Of a DNA stretch of 64,000 nt, positions 18,615 to 28,785 are shown piece after piece (positions within the stretch are counted from its first letter, which is position 1; each line of letters opens with the position of its first letter). The DNA comes from Candidatus Avispirillum faecium (lineage in GTDB: Bacteria > Bacillota > Clostridia > Oscillospirales > CAG-272): positions 1 through 64,000 of the forward strand of contig CAJFOI010000050.1 of the NCBI GenBank assembly GCA_904396155.1, given 5' to 3'. The position numbers were made by a program, and so were the translations under genes. The notes beneath the pieces are model-generated. The model was not told where the DNA came from. It was given only the letters and a program-made list of their open reading frames with translations, and searched no databases.

Positions 18615-18630
18615 CTGTACAAATGCTAAA

Positions 18631-19056
18631 AGAACAATCCCCCAGTCAGCTTCGCTGACATCCCCCTTTACACAAGGGGGACTTTATTACTTAGCCTCCC
18701 CTGTGGTGCAGCTCCGCAGGAGATGCTGGGGTGGCGGCTTGCCGTAGGCAAGTCGAAGGGGTTGTAAAGAGGGACAATCCCTCAGACTCCACTTACGCAA
18801 AGCCAGATCCCTTGGCGGCTCTGCAAGAGACGCCCACATGGGAGCCTTTCTTTACTAAGCCTCCCCTTTATAAAGAAGGGAAGCTGACGGAAGGGTTGTG
18901 TATAACAATCCCTCACCCGTTTCGCGGGATTGGCCCCCAAAGTTGCCTTGCATCTCCCCACAAGGGAGCCTAAATATGAAAAGCCTCCCCTTCTTTTTCT
19001 TCGTGAAGGGGAGGTGTCGGTGAAACCGACGGAGGGGTTGCCGCAGGCCCACTTTC
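18631..19056. repeat. hairpin-rich interspersed repeat cluster
   Basis: The space between the convergent spoIIE and ABC ATPase genes is filled by repeat words: CAATCCCCCAGTCAGC-TTC-GCTGAC (18635-18659), CCCCCTT/AAGGGGG, CTTGCC-GTA-GGCAAG (18738-18752), ACAATCCCTC (18775), GGCGGCTCTGCAAGAGACGC, and a GGGGAGG block ending in GAGGGGTTG. The same words recur at 22622, 28366 and 55530. No protein is coded here that I can support. The stems may act as terminators for both flanking operons. Confidence 0.8.
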
Positions 19057-19074: not shown

Positions 19075-19890
19075 TTACTCACTCAGAAGAATCCGGTCCG
19101 TTGCAAACTCCTCTTTTTTCTTTTCCGTATAGAGTTTCATCAGCCCGTCCATTGTCATTTCTTTTCGCGCCTTGCCTTCCAGGGAAAGAATAATCGAACC
19201 GCTGTCCATCATGATGGTTCTGCTTCCGGTGGCCAGTGCCTGCTTCATGTTGTGGGTGATCATCAGTGTGGTCAGATGGTTTTCCCGCACAATATCATTG
19301 GTGATTTCCATAATTTTTTCGGCAGTGGCCGGGTCCAGCGCGGCGGTGTGTTCGTCCAGCAGCAGCAGATCCGGCATGACGATGGTGCACATGAGCAGTG
19401 TCACCACCTGCCGCTGGCCGCCGGAGAGCAGCCCCACTTTTGTCTTCATTCTGTCTTCCAGTCCCATGTTGAACCTTGCAAGAGCCTGGCGGAACAGGGC
19501 GGCTTTCTTTTTGGTGAGCGCGGGTGCAAACGGGCCGCTGTGGGCACGGGTGTAGGCCAGGGCAAGATTTTCTTCGATGGTCATGCCCGGGGCCGTTCCC
19601 TTCATGGGATCCTGGAAAACCCGGCCGATCCTGCGGGCGCGCTTGTACTCCGGCAAAAATGTGATGTCTTCTCCTCCCAGTCGAATGGAGCCCCTGTCCG
19701 GCAGATAGGTTCCGCAGATTGCATTGAACAGCGTGCTTTTTCCGGCGCCGTTGGAACCGATGATGGTGACAAAGTCTCCCTTTTCCAGAGAAAGCGTTAC
19801 GTCTTTCAGGGCCACGTGCTCATTTACTGTTCCCTTGCCAAAGGTTTTGGACAAATGGGAAATTTTCAGCATCGGTACTTGTGTATTCAT
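19075..19890 (-). CDS. ABC transporter ATP-binding protein (TrpXYZ type)
   Basis: A 271-residue ATPase of a putative tryptophan importer. Walker A is GSNGAGKST (about residue 45), the signature is LLSGGQRQ, Walker B is DLLLLDEHTAALDP, and the switch histidine is in MITHNM. It overlaps the permease gene by 4 bases. Members of this group pair with an ABC_sub_bind lipoprotein and a 9-10 span permease, as here. The assignment to tryptophan rests on the Trp T-box leader further upstream rather than on the ATPase itself. It is the last gene of the operon; only repeats follow. Confidence 0.88.
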   Translation of the reverse strand: MNTQVPMLKISHLSKTFGKGTVNEHVALKDVTLSLEKGDFVTIIGSNGAGKSTLFNAICGTYLPDRGSIRLGGEDITFLPEYKRARRIGRVFQDPMKGTAPGMTIEENLALAYTRAHSGPFAPALTKKKAALFRQALARFNMGLEDRMKTKVGLLSGGQRQVVTLLMCTIVMPDLLLLDEHTAALDPATAEKIMEITNDIVRENHLTTLMITHNMKQALATGSRTIMMDSGSIILSLEGKARKEMTMDGLMKLYTEKKKEEFATDRILLSE

Positions 19891-20816
19891 GCCCGTCGTG
19901 CCTCCCGTTTGTTTTTCCATGTGGCAACTGTATCTTTCATGGCGGGGATGATCAATGTAATGGCCACGATCACCGCACACAAAAGTTTCATCAGATTGGC
20001 ACTGTTGTCTCCGAACAGTTCCGCATCCACTACAAAGGTGACGATCATTTTGTAAATGATGGAGCCGCACACGGCAGAGACAAGGCCCAGAGTGACGCCG
20101 CGTCTGCCCCGGGGAAACAGAGAGAACAATGCTTCCCCGATGATTACCGCCGCAAGGCCGTAGATCAGGGTGCCGCTGCTGGAACTTGCATCGGAGTACC
20201 CCACGTAGTGGGCGATGAGCGCACCGGAGAGGGCGATCAGGCCGTTGGAGATGCAAAGGCCGATGATTTTTGTCCGGTCCACATTGATGGAGGAAGCCCG
20301 CACCATGTCCGGATTGTCTCCGGTGGCCCGAATGCACATACCCAGGTGGGTTTTGAAGAACAGGATCATGAGGACAATCACGCCTATGCACAGAATGGCG
20401 GCGAGAACGGCGCCGGCGATCTTCTTGTCATCCCGGGAGGCGTCTTCTCCAAGGACGGCGTAGGCGATTTTGAACAGTGCCTGGTCCCCGATGGCCAGGT
20501 TGGGGCCGTGCCGCACCATGAGGTTGATCGAATACAGGCCGCTCATGGTGATGATTCCGGCCAGCACCGGATGGACCTTCAGCTTTGTCTGCAAAATCCC
20601 GGTGGTAAATCCGGCGGCCACACCTGCCAGCAGTGCAAACAGCAGGGAAAGCCGCGGGTATCCCAGGACGGCGGTGGCTGCAGCTACCGCGTTTCCAAAC
20701 CCGAAGGAACCTTCCGTCGTCAGGTCCGGGATGTTCAGTACGCGCAGGGAGATGAAGACGCCGATCGCCAGAAGTCCGTACAGGAAGCCTTCCTGCAGGG
20801 CTGTTACGTATAACAT
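19887..20816 (-). CDS. ABC transporter permease (TrpXYZ type)
   Basis: A 309-residue membrane protein of the branched-chain amino acid permease family (BPD_transp_2). About eight to ten hydrophobic spans are visible, with EGSFGFGNAVAAA near residue 36, FFKTHLGMCIRATGDNPDMVRASSI in the cytoplasmic coupling loop and GLCISNGLIALSGALIAHYVG after it. It lies between its lipoprotein (33 bp upstream) and ATPase (4-base overlap). Confidence 0.88.
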   Translation of the reverse strand: MLYVTALQEGFLYGLLAIGVFISLRVLNIPDLTTEGSFGFGNAVAAATAVLGYPRLSLLFALLAGVAAGFTTGILQTKLKVHPVLAGIITMSGLYSINLMVRHGPNLAIGDQALFKIAYAVLGEDASRDDKKIAGAVLAAILCIGVIVLMILFFKTHLGMCIRATGDNPDMVRASSINVDRTKIIGLCISNGLIALSGALIAHYVGYSDASSSSGTLIYGLAAVIIGEALFSLFPRGRRGVTLGLVSAVCGSIIYKMIVTFVVDAELFGDNSANLMKLLCAVIVAITLIIPAMKDTVATWKNKREARRA

Positions 20817-20849: not shown

Positions 20850-21869
20850 TCAGTTTTCGTACAGGTTGACGGTGTACCCAAGGGTGTCCTCGTCAGGGAT
20901 GGCAACTTCCAAAGTCTCTGCCAGTGCTTTGTTGATGGTGCAATAGTCGATCTCTACAACGATCGAGGGGATCTGTGTCAGCGCCGTTCCTTCCAGATAT
21001 TTCACCGCCATGGCAGCAGTTTTTTCTCCGATCCCCTTGTCGTCAATAGCCAGGGTGGCCAGGCATCCGGACGCCACTGTCGTCGCGGAGGAACAGTAAG
21101 TGGGGATTTTTTCGTCCTCGCAGATTTCCACAAGGGCGGAAATACCGGATTGGACGACGGCGTCATTGGGGATGAAGATCACATCTGCGCCGTCTGCGAT
21201 CAGGGCTTCCGTTACGCTGCCCACGTCGTCGGAGGTCTCCACGGTCTTTACAGTGTAGTCGATATTTTGGGAATCCAGGTACGCGCAGGCGGACGTCACC
21301 GTGTCTGTGGCATTTGCCTGGGCGGTGCAGTAGATGAAGCCGAATTTTGAAATATCCGGTGTGAGGGTGTACGCCAGATCTATGATATCAGAGGTGGGAA
21401 TGGCATTGGAAGTGCCGGTGGCATTTTTGTCCGGATGTTCCATGTCTGTGATCACCTCAGCGGCTTCGGGAGCGGACACGGCACAGAAGAAATTGGGCGT
21501 CTCCGATTCCATGCTGACGTAGGCCTGGGTGGCGGGGGTGGCGATGGTAAATACAGCGTCATAGGTGTCGTCGTCCATGGTTGCACAGATCGTGGACAAA
21601 GTGGTGGCGTCGCCCTGGGCGCACTTGTAGTCGATGGTGGTGTTTCCCTTGGTGTAGCCGGCTGCCTCCAGACCGGCGATGATGCCGTCCCGCATATCCA
21701 GGAAAGCGCCGTTCTCGATTTGGGAGATAATGCCGAATTTGTAGGTCTCTCCCGCACTGTCTTGATTGTCCCCTGCATGGTCCGGAGCGTCTTCCTTTGC
21801 GCATCCGCCTGCGAGCAGGGGTACTGCCAGCAAAGTGAGCAGCAAGAGAACAGAAATCAGTTTTTTCAT
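20850..21869 (-). CDS. ABC transporter substrate-binding lipoprotein (TrpX type)
   Basis: A 339-residue secreted lipoprotein. The signal peptide ends in the lipobox LLAGGC (Cys about 23). The mature part is the ABC_sub_bind periplasmic fold with two lobes: FGIISQIENGAFLDMRDG, YKCAQGDATTLSTICATM, DAVFTIATPATQAY, GADVIFIPNDAVVQSG and AIDDKGIGEKTAAMAVKYLEG. The family includes TrpX, predicted elsewhere to bind tryptophan. GGAGG precedes the start. The 110 bp upstream contain no good minus-strand promoter, consistent with transcription arriving from the T-box promoter at 22567-22595. Confidence 0.88.
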   Translation of the reverse strand: MKKLISVLLLLTLLAVPLLAGGCAKEDAPDHAGDNQDSAGETYKFGIISQIENGAFLDMRDGIIAGLEAAGYTKGNTTIDYKCAQGDATTLSTICATMDDDTYDAVFTIATPATQAYVSMESETPNFFCAVSAPEAAEVITDMEHPDKNATGTSNAIPTSDIIDLAYTLTPDISKFGFIYCTAQANATDTVTSACAYLDSQNIDYTVKTVETSDDVGSVTEALIADGADVIFIPNDAVVQSGISALVEICEDEKIPTYCSSATTVASGCLATLAIDDKGIGEKTAAMAVKYLEGTALTQIPSIVVEIDYCTINKALAETLEVAIPDEDTLGYTVNLYEN

Positions 21870-21923
21870 AGTAATCCTCCAAAATTAAGTTTTTATATTC
21901 AGCCGCAAAAGCGGAGTCTGACT

Positions 21924-21951
21924 TGTTTTTTATCCCTTGCTCCGGTATACT
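21924..21951 (+). promoter_or_regulatory. possible promoter of the Dabb gene
   Basis: TTGTTT (21924-21929), 16-bp spacer, TATACT (21946-21951), 28 bp before the start codon. The -35 box is a weak match. Confidence 0.45.
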
Positions 21952-21979
21952 TTACATATACGAAAGAGGAGGGACGCCT

Positions 21980-22276
21980 ATGATCCACATGGTGTTTATG
22001 AAATTTGAAGCGGGCTTTTTCACACCGGCGGTATTTCAAAGGATCGCCGGCGCATTCAAAAGCTTGCAGGAGGCGCTGCCGGAGCAGATTTTGTCTGTGC
22101 AGGTCCTGGAAAACTGTGTTTGTCGAAAGGAAAACATGGATCTGCTGATCCGCATGGAACTGAGCGGTCCGGATGCGCTGGAGGCATATCTCCGCCATCC
22201 GGTGCATCGGGGGATCGGAGAAGAGATGAATCCTCACATCGTGCAGCGCTGCTCCTTTGATTGCAGGGAGCAGTAA
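21980..22276 (+). CDS. Dabb (stress-responsive alpha/beta barrel) protein
   Basis: A 98-residue ferredoxin-like alpha/beta domain. The start MIHMVFMKF, then LENCVCRKENMDLLIRMELSGPDALEAYLRHPVHRGI, matches the Dabb pattern, with the usual histidines at the start and in the HPVH motif. Function of the family is poorly defined; members are small dimeric stress or binding proteins. GAGGAGGG supports the start. The gene lies antisense between the Trp T-box leader and the transporter genes it probably controls, so transcription of the two strands must collide here. Confidence 0.85.
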   Translation: MIHMVFMKFEAGFFTPAVFQRIAGAFKSLQEALPEQILSVQVLENCVCRKENMDLLIRMELSGPDALEAYLRHPVHRGIGEEMNPHIVQRCSFDCREQ

Positions 22277-22560
22277 AAACAAAAAGATCCTGCCCACAAA
22301 GGACAGGATCTTACCTGCGGTACCACCTTTTTTGCATGCAAAAACACATGCCGCTCGTCAGAGTGCCAACACACCCCTTGCCTTTAACGCAGGCATACGG
22401 TCCGGGTACTAAACACAAAAAATTACAGATGTGCTGTTCTCCATTCCCTCAGCGATCCATTTGCCGGGCGACCTGCCGCGGGGCTTTCACCCTCCCCCGC
22501 TCTCTGTAGACGTCCACGTCGGTTTGATCTTCGCTTCACAGGTTTCATCACACTATTGAT
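22276..22560 (-). ncRNA. T-box leader, tryptophan specifier (UGG)
   Basis: Read on the minus strand: Stem I region from about 22560, the distal-loop motif GGTGAAAGCC, then GCAAATGGATCG with the specifier triplet TGG at 22459-22457 (Trp), later the T-box AAGGTGGTACCGC (22317-22327 core) and a terminator stem AAGATCCTG...CAGGATCTT with a T run (22312-22276). Uncharged tRNA-Trp would stabilise the antiterminator. The next minus-strand genes are the TrpXYZ-type transporter, starting about 400 nt downstream past the antisense Dabb gene. The specifier reading is made by alignment to known leaders by eye. Confidence 0.87.
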
Positions 22561-22566
22561 GGGGGC

Positions 22567-22595
22567 ATTATACTACACCACGGAGACGTTGTCAA
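22567..22595 (-). promoter_or_regulatory. promoter of the Trp T-box transcript
   Basis: A consensus promoter on the minus strand: TTGACA (22590-22595), 17-bp spacer, TATAAT (22567-22572). It immediately precedes the T-box leader. Confidence 0.85.
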
Positions 22596-22621: not shown

Positions 22622-22826
22622 CAGTCAATACAACCTCTCCGTCATGGCTGCGCTGACACCACCCCCGGGTCTGCTGCGCAGCCCCACACAGGGGAGGCAA
22701 GGAACGAAATGGCTCCCTTGTAGGCAGCTGCGTAGCAAAACAAAAGGCCCCCATGTGGGCGTCTCTTATAGAGCCGCTAAGGGGGCTGTCTGCGTTAGCA
22801 GACTGAGGGATTGTTTTGTTAAACTT
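22622..22826. repeat. hairpin-rich interspersed repeat
   Basis: Bounded by CAATACAACCTCTCCG on one side and GAGGGATTGTTTT on the other. It contains CCCCACACAGGGGAGG, GGCCCCCATGTGGGCGTCTC and the stem GTCTGC-GTTA-GCAGAC (22788-22803). It is the inverted form of the element at 28366 and lies at the 3' end of the Ytr-like operon. Confidence 0.75.
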
Positions 22827-26048: not shown

Positions 26049-27209
26049 ATGAAGATTTATGCACCTGAAGTGCAGCATTATCGTGTGACAAGCGATAAGC
26101 GAAACAAGTTTTTCAAGTACAACGGCTGGCCGTCTGTGTGCAGGGATGACCGGGGCGTGCTGTACGCCGTGGCGTCTTCCATGCGCCTGTCCCACGTGGA
26201 TCCCTGTGGAAAAAACTGTATGTACATAAGCTACGACGAAGGAAGAACCTGGACGAAACCCATTGTTCTCAACGATTCCTATGTGGACGACCGGGACATG
26301 GGGATCTGCTATCTGGGAGAGGGGCGGTTGCTTGTGAGCTGGTTTTCCGAGGCTCCCCAAAATTATCACGACCAGATCCAGGAATACGACTGGTTTGGCG
26401 ACGCCGACAAGGCCATTGTGGCAGGATTTTCCAAGGCCTGGAAGCTGTTTCCGAGAGAAGAGTACCTGGCCTGTGCCGGCTCCTTTGTGATGTTGAGCGA
26501 GGATTACGGTGTCACCTGGGGCGACCCCATCCGCGTTCCTCTTTTTGGTCCCCACGGACCCTGTGTCTGCAAGGACGGCACGCTCGTTTATCTCGGCAAT
26601 ATGCTGTATAACGACAGCTATTCGTACAAGGATGAAAACGGAAGTGAGGTGCGCCCGCCCATCACCTGCTATACCAGCACCGACGGCGGGCATACCTGGA
26701 ATTTTGCAGGGGAAGTGCCCGACGGGAAAGGTCCAAAAGGAGAAGCGGTGACGGCATACCATATGTACGAGCCCCATGTGGTGGAGCTGCCCGACGGCAG
26801 GCTGATGGGTGCGATCCGCACCCACAATGAGGAGATGGATCCCGCATTTACGGTGTTCATCACCTATTCCAGCGACAAGGGGAAGACCTGGACGGCACCC
26901 AGGGGGATCGGTGTGGACGGAAGCCCGCCCCATCTGATGGTACACTCCTCGGGAGCGGTCATCTGCTCCTACAGCTGCCGCACGGATGGGATCCGCTGCG
27001 AGCGAGCTGTCGTCAGCTACGATCTGGGAGAGACATGGACCCAGGATTATGCCCTGGATCACCGGCTTGGCAACCAGAAGGACATGGGATACCCCGCTTC
27101 GGTAGAGCTTTCCGACGGTTCCATCCTCACGGTTTATTACCATCCGTATTCGGACGAATATTGGACCAGCGTACAGTGTACCCGCTGGAGACTGATGAAA
27201 CAAGCGTAA
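26049..27209 (+). CDS. sialidase-superfamily (BNR/Asp-box) protein, copy 1
   Basis: A 386-residue six-bladed propeller protein with Asp boxes at SYDEGRTWT, STDGGHTWNF, SSDKGKTWTAP and SYDLGETWTQ. There is no signal peptide, so it would act in the cytoplasm. The canonical sialidase FRIP start motif is absent; an Arg in SSMRLSHVDP may take the role of an active-site residue. The call is to the fold, not to proven sialidase activity; other exo-glycosidases share it. A paralogue follows 19 bp downstream, nearly identical over long DNA blocks. Confidence 0.82.
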   Translation: MKIYAPEVQHYRVTSDKRNKFFKYNGWPSVCRDDRGVLYAVASSMRLSHVDPCGKNCMYISYDEGRTWTKPIVLNDSYVDDRDMGICYLGEGRLLVSWFSEAPQNYHDQIQEYDWFGDADKAIVAGFSKAWKLFPREEYLACAGSFVMLSEDYGVTWGDPIRVPLFGPHGPCVCKDGTLVYLGNMLYNDSYSYKDENGSEVRPPITCYTSTDGGHTWNFAGEVPDGKGPKGEAVTAYHMYEPHVVELPDGRLMGAIRTHNEEMDPAFTVFITYSSDKGKTWTAPRGIGVDGSPPHLMVHSSGAVICSYSCRTDGIRCERAVVSYDLGETWTQDYALDHRLGNQKDMGYPASVELSDGSILTVYYHPYSDEYWTSVQCTRWRLMKQA

Positions 27210-27228: not shown

Positions 27229-28356
27229 ATGGATTTTTATACACCGAAGGTGGAGCATTATCGGATCACTGCCGATCACGGAAACAAGTTTTTCAAGTAC
27301 AACGGCTGGCCGTCTGTGTGCAGGGATGACCGGGGCGTGCTGTACGCCGTGGCGTCTTCCATGCGCTTGTCCCACGTGGATCCCTGCGGCAAGGGCTGCA
27401 TGTACATGAGCTATGACGAGGGAAAAACCTGGACCAAGCCTATGGTTCTCAACGATTCCTATGTGGACGACCGGGACATGGGAATCTGCTATCTGGGAGA
27501 GGGGCGGCTGCTTGTCAGCTGGTTTTCCCAGGCCCCTAAAAATTACCACGACCAGATTCAGGAGTACGACTGGTTTGACGAAAAGGATCAGGCCATCTCC
27601 TGGGGCTTTTCCCAGGCTTGGAGGAAACTCTCAAAAGAAGAATACACCGGCAGTGCCGGCTCCTTTGTGATGCTGAGCGAGGATTACGGCGTCACCTGGG
27701 GCGACCCCATTCGGGTGCCGGTGACGGCGCCCCACGGCATGAGCATGTGCAAAGACGGCACACTGGTATACCTTGGAAATGTTTTTCACAGCGGAAAAGA
27801 TACCCGCCCGCCAGTTACCTGCTATACCAGCGCCGACGGCGGGCACACCTGGAGCTTTGCGGGAGAAGTGCCCGATACGCAGGGGCCGCGGGGGGAGGCG
27901 GTGACGGCGTACAACATGTTTGAGCCCCACGTGGTGGAGCTGCCTGACGGCAGACTGATGGGTGCGATCCGCACCCACAATGAGGAGATGGATCCCGCGT
28001 TTACGGTGTTCATCACCTATTCCAGCGACAAAGGGAAGACCTGGACGGCACCCAGGGGGATCGGTGTGGACGGAAGCCCGCCCCATCTGATGGTGCACTC
28101 CTCGGGAGCGGTCATCTGCTCCTACAGCTGCCGCACGGACGGCAAGCGCTGCGAACGTGCCGTGGTCAGCTACGATCTGGGAGAGACATGGACCCAGGAT
28201 TATGCCATCGACGACCGGCTGGATTTCTTCTGCGATATGGGGTATCCTGCTTCGGTGGAGCTTTCCGACGGATCGATTCTCACGGTTTACTATCAAAAGT
28301 TCCCCGGCGAATGGTGGACCAGTGTCCTTTGCTCCAGATGGAGACTGCATGAGTAA
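27229..28356 (+). CDS. sialidase-superfamily (BNR/Asp-box) protein, copy 2
   Basis: A 375-residue paralogue of the preceding gene, in the same orientation and reached through a 19-bp gap with GGGGAGG. It keeps all four Asp boxes (SYDEGKTWT, SADGGHTWSF, SSDKGKTWTAP, SYDLGETWTQ). Differences cluster in loops: FGDADKAIVA against FDEKDQAISW, a shorter loop where copy 1 has YNDSYSYKDENGSEV, and the segment after YALDHRL/YAIDDRL. That points to a recent duplication with diverged substrate loops. It ends just before the repeat cluster. Confidence 0.82.
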   Translation: MDFYTPKVEHYRITADHGNKFFKYNGWPSVCRDDRGVLYAVASSMRLSHVDPCGKGCMYMSYDEGKTWTKPMVLNDSYVDDRDMGICYLGEGRLLVSWFSQAPKNYHDQIQEYDWFDEKDQAISWGFSQAWRKLSKEEYTGSAGSFVMLSEDYGVTWGDPIRVPVTAPHGMSMCKDGTLVYLGNVFHSGKDTRPPVTCYTSADGGHTWSFAGEVPDTQGPRGEAVTAYNMFEPHVVELPDGRLMGAIRTHNEEMDPAFTVFITYSSDKGKTWTAPRGIGVDGSPPHLMVHSSGAVICSYSCRTDGKRCERAVVSYDLGETWTQDYAIDDRLDFFCDMGYPASVELSDGSILTVYYQKFPGEWWTSVLCSRWRLHE

Positions 28357-28365
28357 AGAGGAGGG

Positions 28366-28785
28366 ACAATCCCCCAGGCGGCTTTGCCGCCATGCCCCCT
28401 TAGCGGCTCTGCAAGAGACGCCCACAAGGGGCCTATTAAACCCAAACTTCCCCTGTGATGCAGCTTCACAGGAGATGCTGGGATGGTGGCTTGCCATAAC
28501 TACCAATAAATGAGGCCTCCCCTTCGTGGGGGCTGCGCAGCAGACCCAGGGGAGGTGGCACGGCAGCCATGACAGAGGGGCAGTAAAGAACAATCCCTCA
28601 GTCGACTACGTCGACAGCTCCCTTTACACAAGGGAGCCTTTTGCTTATGTTTTCCTGCGTCCCCACCAGGGAGCCTCTTTGCTTATGTTTTCCCGCATCT
28701 CCACAAGGGGGACTTTTTCATTCTAAGCCTCCCCTGTGTAAGGGGAGGTGGGTTTTGCGTAGCAAAACTCGGAGGGGTTGTATTC
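28366..28785. repeat. hairpin-rich interspersed repeat cluster
   Basis: Lies between the convergent sialidase-fold and purB genes. It contains ACAATCCCCC then GGCGGC-TTT-GCCGCC (28377-28391), GGCGGCTCTGCAAGAGACGC, ACAATCCCTC then GTCGAC-TAC-GTCGAC (28601-28615), CCTCCCCTGTGTAAGGGGAGG and GTTTTGC-GTA-GCAAAAC (28752-28768) ending GGAGGGGTTGT. Two near-repeats read TTTTGCTTATGTTTTCCTGC and TTTGCTTATGTTTTCCCGC. No gene is supported here. Confidence 0.8.

Follow-up and report, generated by a model that had tools for sequence, protein, structure and literature searches.

A tryptophan T-box leader in an uncultured clostridial genome probably controls, by read-through across a gene encoded antisense to it, the trpXYZ importer genes on the far side of that gene, which would make the locus a noncontiguous operon. 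The normal practice is to pair a riboswitch with the nearest gene downstream on its own strand; where a T-box points into a gene of the other strand, it is usually set aside or read as the antisense regulator of that gene. In the window, the 64,000-nucleotide stretch of Candidatus Avispirillum faecium DNA analysed here, the T-box reads leftward into the 3′ end of a Dabb-domain gene and the importer genes follow beyond it (Table 1). Noncontiguous operons and antisense-acting riboswitches are each already known and it is their conserved combination that is new: a search of literature titles and abstracts found no description of a T-box/antisense Dabb/trpXYZ arrangement.

Table 1. Features of the T-box, Dabb and trpXYZ locus, by position in the window
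Feature	Position	Strand	Evidence or description
trpZ, ATPase	19075..19890	-	PF00005
trpY, permease	19887..20816	-	PF02653
trpX, substrate-binding lipoprotein, first co-directional gene	20850..21869	-	PF04392
Conserved palindrome/hairpin GTCAG-N3-CCGC-N4-GCGGCTGA	21899..21922	-	exact in 8 genomes
Dabb promoter TTGTTT-17-TATACT	21923..21951	+	top Dabb-sense site, weight-matrix scan
Dabb-domain gene, antisense to proposed read-through RNA	21980..22276	+	PF07876, 31.4 bits
Intrinsic terminator stem, followed by a T-run	22284..22312	-	mutually exclusive with antiterminator
Tryptophan T-box leader	22296..22548	-	RF00230 full-length covariance match
T-box sequence GGTGGTACC	22319-22327	-	read from sequence
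T-box specifier UGG	22457-22459	-	read from sequence
T-box leader promoter TTGACA-17-TATAAT	22567..22595	-	12/12 consensus matches

A complete tryptophan T-box convergent to Dabb

The first-pass annotation had described a consensus promoter and a complete T-box, with UGG specifier, T-box sequence and terminator, reading leftward, and each of these parts was located on the minus strand behind a promoter that matches consensus at every hexamer position. A covariance search with the T-box model returned a full-length RF00230 match (79.4 bits, E 2.1e-17), yet this score lies below the Rfam gathering score of 93, and a default Rfam scan therefore leaves the T-box unlisted. Low scores are ordinary in this genome, since five of the nine T-boxes detected there are below the gathering threshold and four above it. 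Each of the other eight has a co-directional open reading frame (ORF) downstream, the first one found at locus L005 lying 670 nt off. The window T-box instead is convergent to Dabb and sits at the Dabb 3′ end, the placement of an antisense-acting riboswitch. Its terminator stem ends 7 nt beyond the stop codon of Dabb, and from there the trpX start is another 414 nt away. Its T-box sequence carries UGGU where three relatives carry UGGC, and the discriminator of tRNA-Trp is G73 in all six genes read, so that UGGU would form a G-U pair with it. This weaker fit is a point against the switch, although both UGGU and UGGC are common among other UGG T-box loci.

The importer genes and a probable need for tryptophan

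The earlier placement of a TrpX-type lipoprotein as the first co-directional gene, about 400 nt on from the T-box, agrees with the measured 414 nt. The trpX product scores 178 bits against its Pfam family (cut-off 25.9), and its sole NCBIfam match is NF041285 TrpX at 210 bits, below the equivalog cut-off of 390. A GGAGG site stands ahead of trpX. TrpX contains no tryptophan residue in any of the eight genomes that carry it at this locus (333-341 aa), and in the window TrpZ also has none and TrpY one, counts that are given without comparison against other transporters.

Tryptophan import should matter to these bacteria because a search for trpC (PF00218, indole-3-glycerol-phosphate synthase) gave no match in 16 of the 17 genus genomes, that of the window included. 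A second T-box in the window's genome, L007 (G000:C14:16880-17125, minus strand), has by eye a UGG specifier and a UGGC box and stands directly before a trpB-like gene; from the appearance of their sequences, we take the genes downstream of it to be a trpB-trpA-like pair. From its gene content the organism looks dependent on imported tryptophan or indole. The RNA-binding domain of Rho (PF07497) was likewise searched for and found in none of the 17 genomes, whereas the same search was positive in 9 of 14 control genomes; with no Rho found, a long untranslated stretch of transcript need not be stopped.

Conservation of the locus across a sub-clade

Among the 17 genomes of the genus, seven beyond that of the window carry close trpX orthologues (79-83% identity). 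A Dabb orthologue is present in eight of the 17, exactly those whose trpX is 79-100% identical, and in all eight it lies antisense and directly upstream of trpX; identical gene order in eight separate genomes rules out an assembly artefact. Beyond Dabb, a T-box follows in every one of the seven contigs long enough to reach it (the window and 6/6 relatives), the L017 contig stopping short. The T-box DNA is single-copy and was found in 7/17 genomes, the same seven as the Dabb-T-box loci. The arrangement of T-box, Dabb and transporter, whose conservation the first-pass annotation had left to be checked, is thus kept wherever the contig reaches the T-box, and Dabb stands between T-box and trpX in all seven such loci, as in the architecture of a noncontiguous operon. 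From the end of the T-box to the start of trpX, with Dabb inside, the distance in the sub-clade is 426-507 nt.

Within this arrangement the parts of the switch are strongly constrained. The T-box promoter scores 16.5 in the weight-matrix scan in 7/7 loci, and its hexamers are invariant across them (-35, 6/6 positions; -10, 6/6), in contrast to 1/17 invariant positions in the promoter spacer and 4/95 upstream of the promoter. The UGG specifier is invariant in all seven loci, antiterminator and terminator form alternative folds in all seven, and 99/109 stem I positions are invariant, compared with 21/91 third codon positions of Dabb. Because the hexamers and most of stem I are invariant while silent sites are largely scrambled, we conclude that the switch is under selection. 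The relatives are few and mostly incomplete, and as some are close to each other the independent lineages number fewer than seven, perhaps about 3-4.

The Dabb gene

Dabb had been named as the only gene in between, on the other strand, and this was confirmed. Its promoter reads TTGATT-17-TATACT in the seven relatives and is the best Dabb-sense site in 8/8 loci (scores 9.0-10.9; 2-23 of 200 shuffles), and the gene is under purifying selection (dN/dS 0.08-0.12 among the listed pairs with unsaturated dS). A structure model (mean pLDDT 87.3) has a dimeric alpha/beta-barrel fold that matches olivetolic acid cyclase (5b09; TM 0.79/0.80), with other dimeric alpha/beta barrels similar too. We considered and set aside a tryptophan role for Dabb: among the best 50 fold matches listed are dimeric barrels of the olivetolic acid cyclase type and others, at 8-23% identity, and these point to no particular substrate. 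Searching 394 genomes of the order gave a Dabb match of any kind in seven and strong matches only in the two genus members among them, and as far as searched, close Dabb relatives are confined to the genus. The loci (~3.2 kb) of distant Dabb relatives L104-L108 hold no trpX, trpY or trpZ match. We also asked whether the read-through RNA might encode an overlooked protein. In the window a 132-codon ORF runs antisense to Dabb, and we take it as a by-product of Dabb coding because ORFs of at least 80 codons are missing there in L012 and L014.

A promoter search in the gap before trpX

The statement that trpX has no good promoter of its own held up in a sigma-70-type scan of the eight loci, which share no such site. 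In the 125 nt before trpX of the window no sigma-70-type site in the trpX sense rises above shuffles (172/200 equal or beat the best), and best scores over the same length are 4.6-5.5 in 5/8 loci, values that 164-177 of 200 shuffles match or exceed. Weak sites occur in L012 and L014 at -119 (8.7) and in L017 at -94 (8.4); they are matched or exceeded by 17-41/200 shuffles and are not common to the set. When the whole gap from terminator to trpX was scanned by weight matrix against shuffles, no strong trpX-sense site was common to all loci; sites of 8.7-10.5 in L011, L012 and L014 fall at about -420, just beyond the terminator, and 30, 8 and 13 of 100 shuffles, respectively, score as high or higher. 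The sigma-70-type consensus, in a scan that is blind to other promoter types, thus gives no support to a trpX promoter in the Dabb-trpX spacer.

The spacer does hold a conserved palindrome, GTCAG-N3-CCGC-N4-GCGGCTGA, which is exact in eight genomes at the trpX locus only, with no other exact copy in the 17 genomes. It adjoins the Dabb -35 hexamer, lies 29-38 nt ahead of the trpX start and is followed by a TATA-like AATATA in 8/8 loci. The palindrome could fold as a hairpin within the mRNA of trpX (predicted at -7.6 to -9.4 kcal/mol) or serve as an operator, a choice on which covariation has no bearing because the stem never varies. We rejected an operator shared by a wider regulon, given the lack of further exact copies in the 17 genomes and the scatter of matches with 1-2 mismatches, of which a control pattern gives a few too. 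The surrounding block, 21899-21929, is conserved at 24/31 positions, beyond neutral drift, and the Dabb -35 accounts for only part of this; the block could hold a trpX promoter of unrecognised type, or an operator. Because it could conceal a second trpX promoter, the hairpin element is our chief reservation about the read-through model.

T-boxes at trpX-type loci outside the sub-clade

We scanned 53 trpX-type loci outside the sub-clade for T-boxes (L018-L024, L025-L039, L051-L054 and 27 of L110-L138, with L111 and L124 omitted because they duplicate L019 and L021, and with the scan of L019 limited to the gathering threshold). Of these loci 31 contained a T-box, with UGG as specifier in 26 (24 recognised by pattern and two, L123 and L133, by eye) and other specifiers in four (L032, L034, L035 and L038). 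At all 26 UGG loci the T-box is followed directly by the transporter gene, 43-447 nt away, and no antisense ORF of more than 50 aa lies between the two. Two of the 26, L018 and L024, belong to the same genus, and their trpX is only ~30% identical.

At L027 (945-1392) a UGG T-box stands 447 nt from the start of the trpX-type gene with no ORF of more than 50 aa between, an unusually long empty leader. At L051 (684-2136; a metagenome-assembled genome, or MAG, of Eubacteriales) a co-directional dehydrogenase-like gene separates trpXYZ from a T-box whose specifier was not placed, which is another way for a gene to stand between T-box and trpX.

Other features of the window

Two tandem genes at 26049-27209 and 27229-28356 are 80% identical over 382 aa; from reading their sequences we presume them to be sialidase/BNR-like, and the pair is probably a recent duplication. 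Intergenic pieces ~81-85% alike recur at 22634-22821 and in copies near 18627-18849, 28366-28624 and 300-330, like a short interspersed repeat family.

A model of read-through and its alternatives

In the model that we propose, a leftward transcript would start near 22560 at the strong T-box promoter. With charged tRNA-Trp, polymerase would stop at the hairpin 22312-22284, just short of the Dabb 3′ end, leaving Dabb to be expressed from the promoter that it carries. If tRNA-Trp is uncharged, the antiterminator would be held through the UGG specifier and the bulge of the T-box, and the antiterminated polymerase would cross ~414 nt antisense to Dabb, with no Rho found to halt it, and continue into trpX-trpY-trpZ, to be translated from the GGAGG site before trpX. 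The importer genes would then form a noncontiguous operon with a riboswitch alone as its first section. The same read-through would lower Dabb via polymerase collision, double-stranded RNA or both, with tryptophan starvation turning the importer on and Dabb down.

Read-through into trpXYZ is supported because the gene order is kept, the switch is constrained and trpX is the only co-directional target, and also because no other conserved promoter was found and the T-boxes of sister and outside loci stand directly on trpX-type genes. The negative searches for Rho in all 17 genus genomes and for trpC in 16 of them count in its favour too. The first-pass annotation had tRNA-Trp charging control both the importer and Dabb; comparison bears out the importer part, whereas the Dabb part follows from geometry if read-through occurs. 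A real effect on Dabb, as the geometry and the mechanisms of noncontiguous operons would suggest, seems to us about evenly balanced. We lean slightly against a fuller version, which may still be correct, in which one tRNA-Trp sensor has opposite outputs (importer up, Dabb down), Dabb transcription into the leader acts as a counter-force, the hairpin processes or stabilises the importer mRNA, and the whole is kept by selection.

Read-through could also be real and the passage over Dabb incidental, Dabb having come between T-box and trpX in an ancestor shared by the sub-clade and having little response to tryptophan starvation or importance for it. We regard this as a serious but doubtful alternative. 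Dabb is a general dimeric alpha/beta barrel with no known tie to tryptophan and with distant relatives elsewhere, and in B. thuringiensis a transposase gene lies antisense between a T-box and the tryptophan transporter gene that the T-box regulates in related genomes, a case read by its authors as an accident (PMC9943018); against an incidental passage, the order and strand of Dabb are kept in 8/8 genomes despite largely scrambled silent sites, and its own promoter is kept inside the gap in 8/8.

Alternatively, the T-box may be only an antisense switch on Dabb, with trpXYZ transcribed from a separate promoter inside the conserved spacer, where the palindrome might act as an operator. Antisense-acting riboswitches on convergent genes have been described (PMC9943018), and both the conserved spacer block and the AATATA that follows the palindrome fit such a promoter, but 5/8 loci have no sigma-70-type site above shuffles and none is common to all. 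This explanation also needs a changed target, since the transporter is the direct target in all 26 outside UGG loci, and a tryptophan sensor makes most sense on a tryptophan-type importer; we judge it unlikely. That the T-box is a relic without a target in this clade is very improbable, for although its score is below the Rfam gathering threshold, strong constraint acts on the hexamers of its promoter and on its specifier, terminator and stem I, and antiterminator and terminator still form in 7/7 loci.

Discussion

T-box control of a trpXYZ tryptophan importer has been shown in Streptococcus suis, and the window resembles that system in its UGG specifier, T-box sequence, transcription terminator and ABC importer target (PMC9382623). 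In S. suis the T-box lies within the trpXYZ mRNA leader and carries UGGC, with no intervening gene mentioned in the excerpted account, whereas in the window the box is UGGU and an opposite-strand gene lies between (PMC9382623). An opposite-direction gene inside one proposed transcript, with mutual antisense expected, is a feature shared with the noncontiguous operon menE-menC-MW1733-ytkD-MW1731 of Staphylococcus aureus, for which co-transcription has been reported; the mechanisms reported for noncontiguous operons are polymerase collision and RNase III (PMC7154746). The S. aureus operon has coding genes on both sides (PMC7154746), whereas in the window a riboswitch alone makes up the upstream part and the transcript is a predicted one.

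Antisense-acting riboswitches include the S-box of ubiG-mccB-mccA in Clostridium acetobutylicum and the pocR cobalamin riboswitch of Listeria, along with 292 predicted cases, and T-boxes are among the families least prone to such placement, with 107 antisense against 15,851 sense (PMC9943018). Like these riboswitches, the window T-box is convergent to a gene and faces its 3′ end; unlike them, its antisense segment appears to lie en route to a co-directional importer operon and not to be the sole target (PMC9943018).

Our comparison of sequences suggests that the true target of this T-box lies past the opposite gene, and that evolution has so kept it across a sub-clade of uncultured Clostridia. 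If true, the locus would join noncontiguous operons with antisense-acting riboswitches, which have so far been described apart, and would serve as a caution that operons may be overlooked when riboswitches are assigned to their targets. The locus would further provide a natural experiment on the distance that an untranslated transcript can cover in bacteria with no Rho found.
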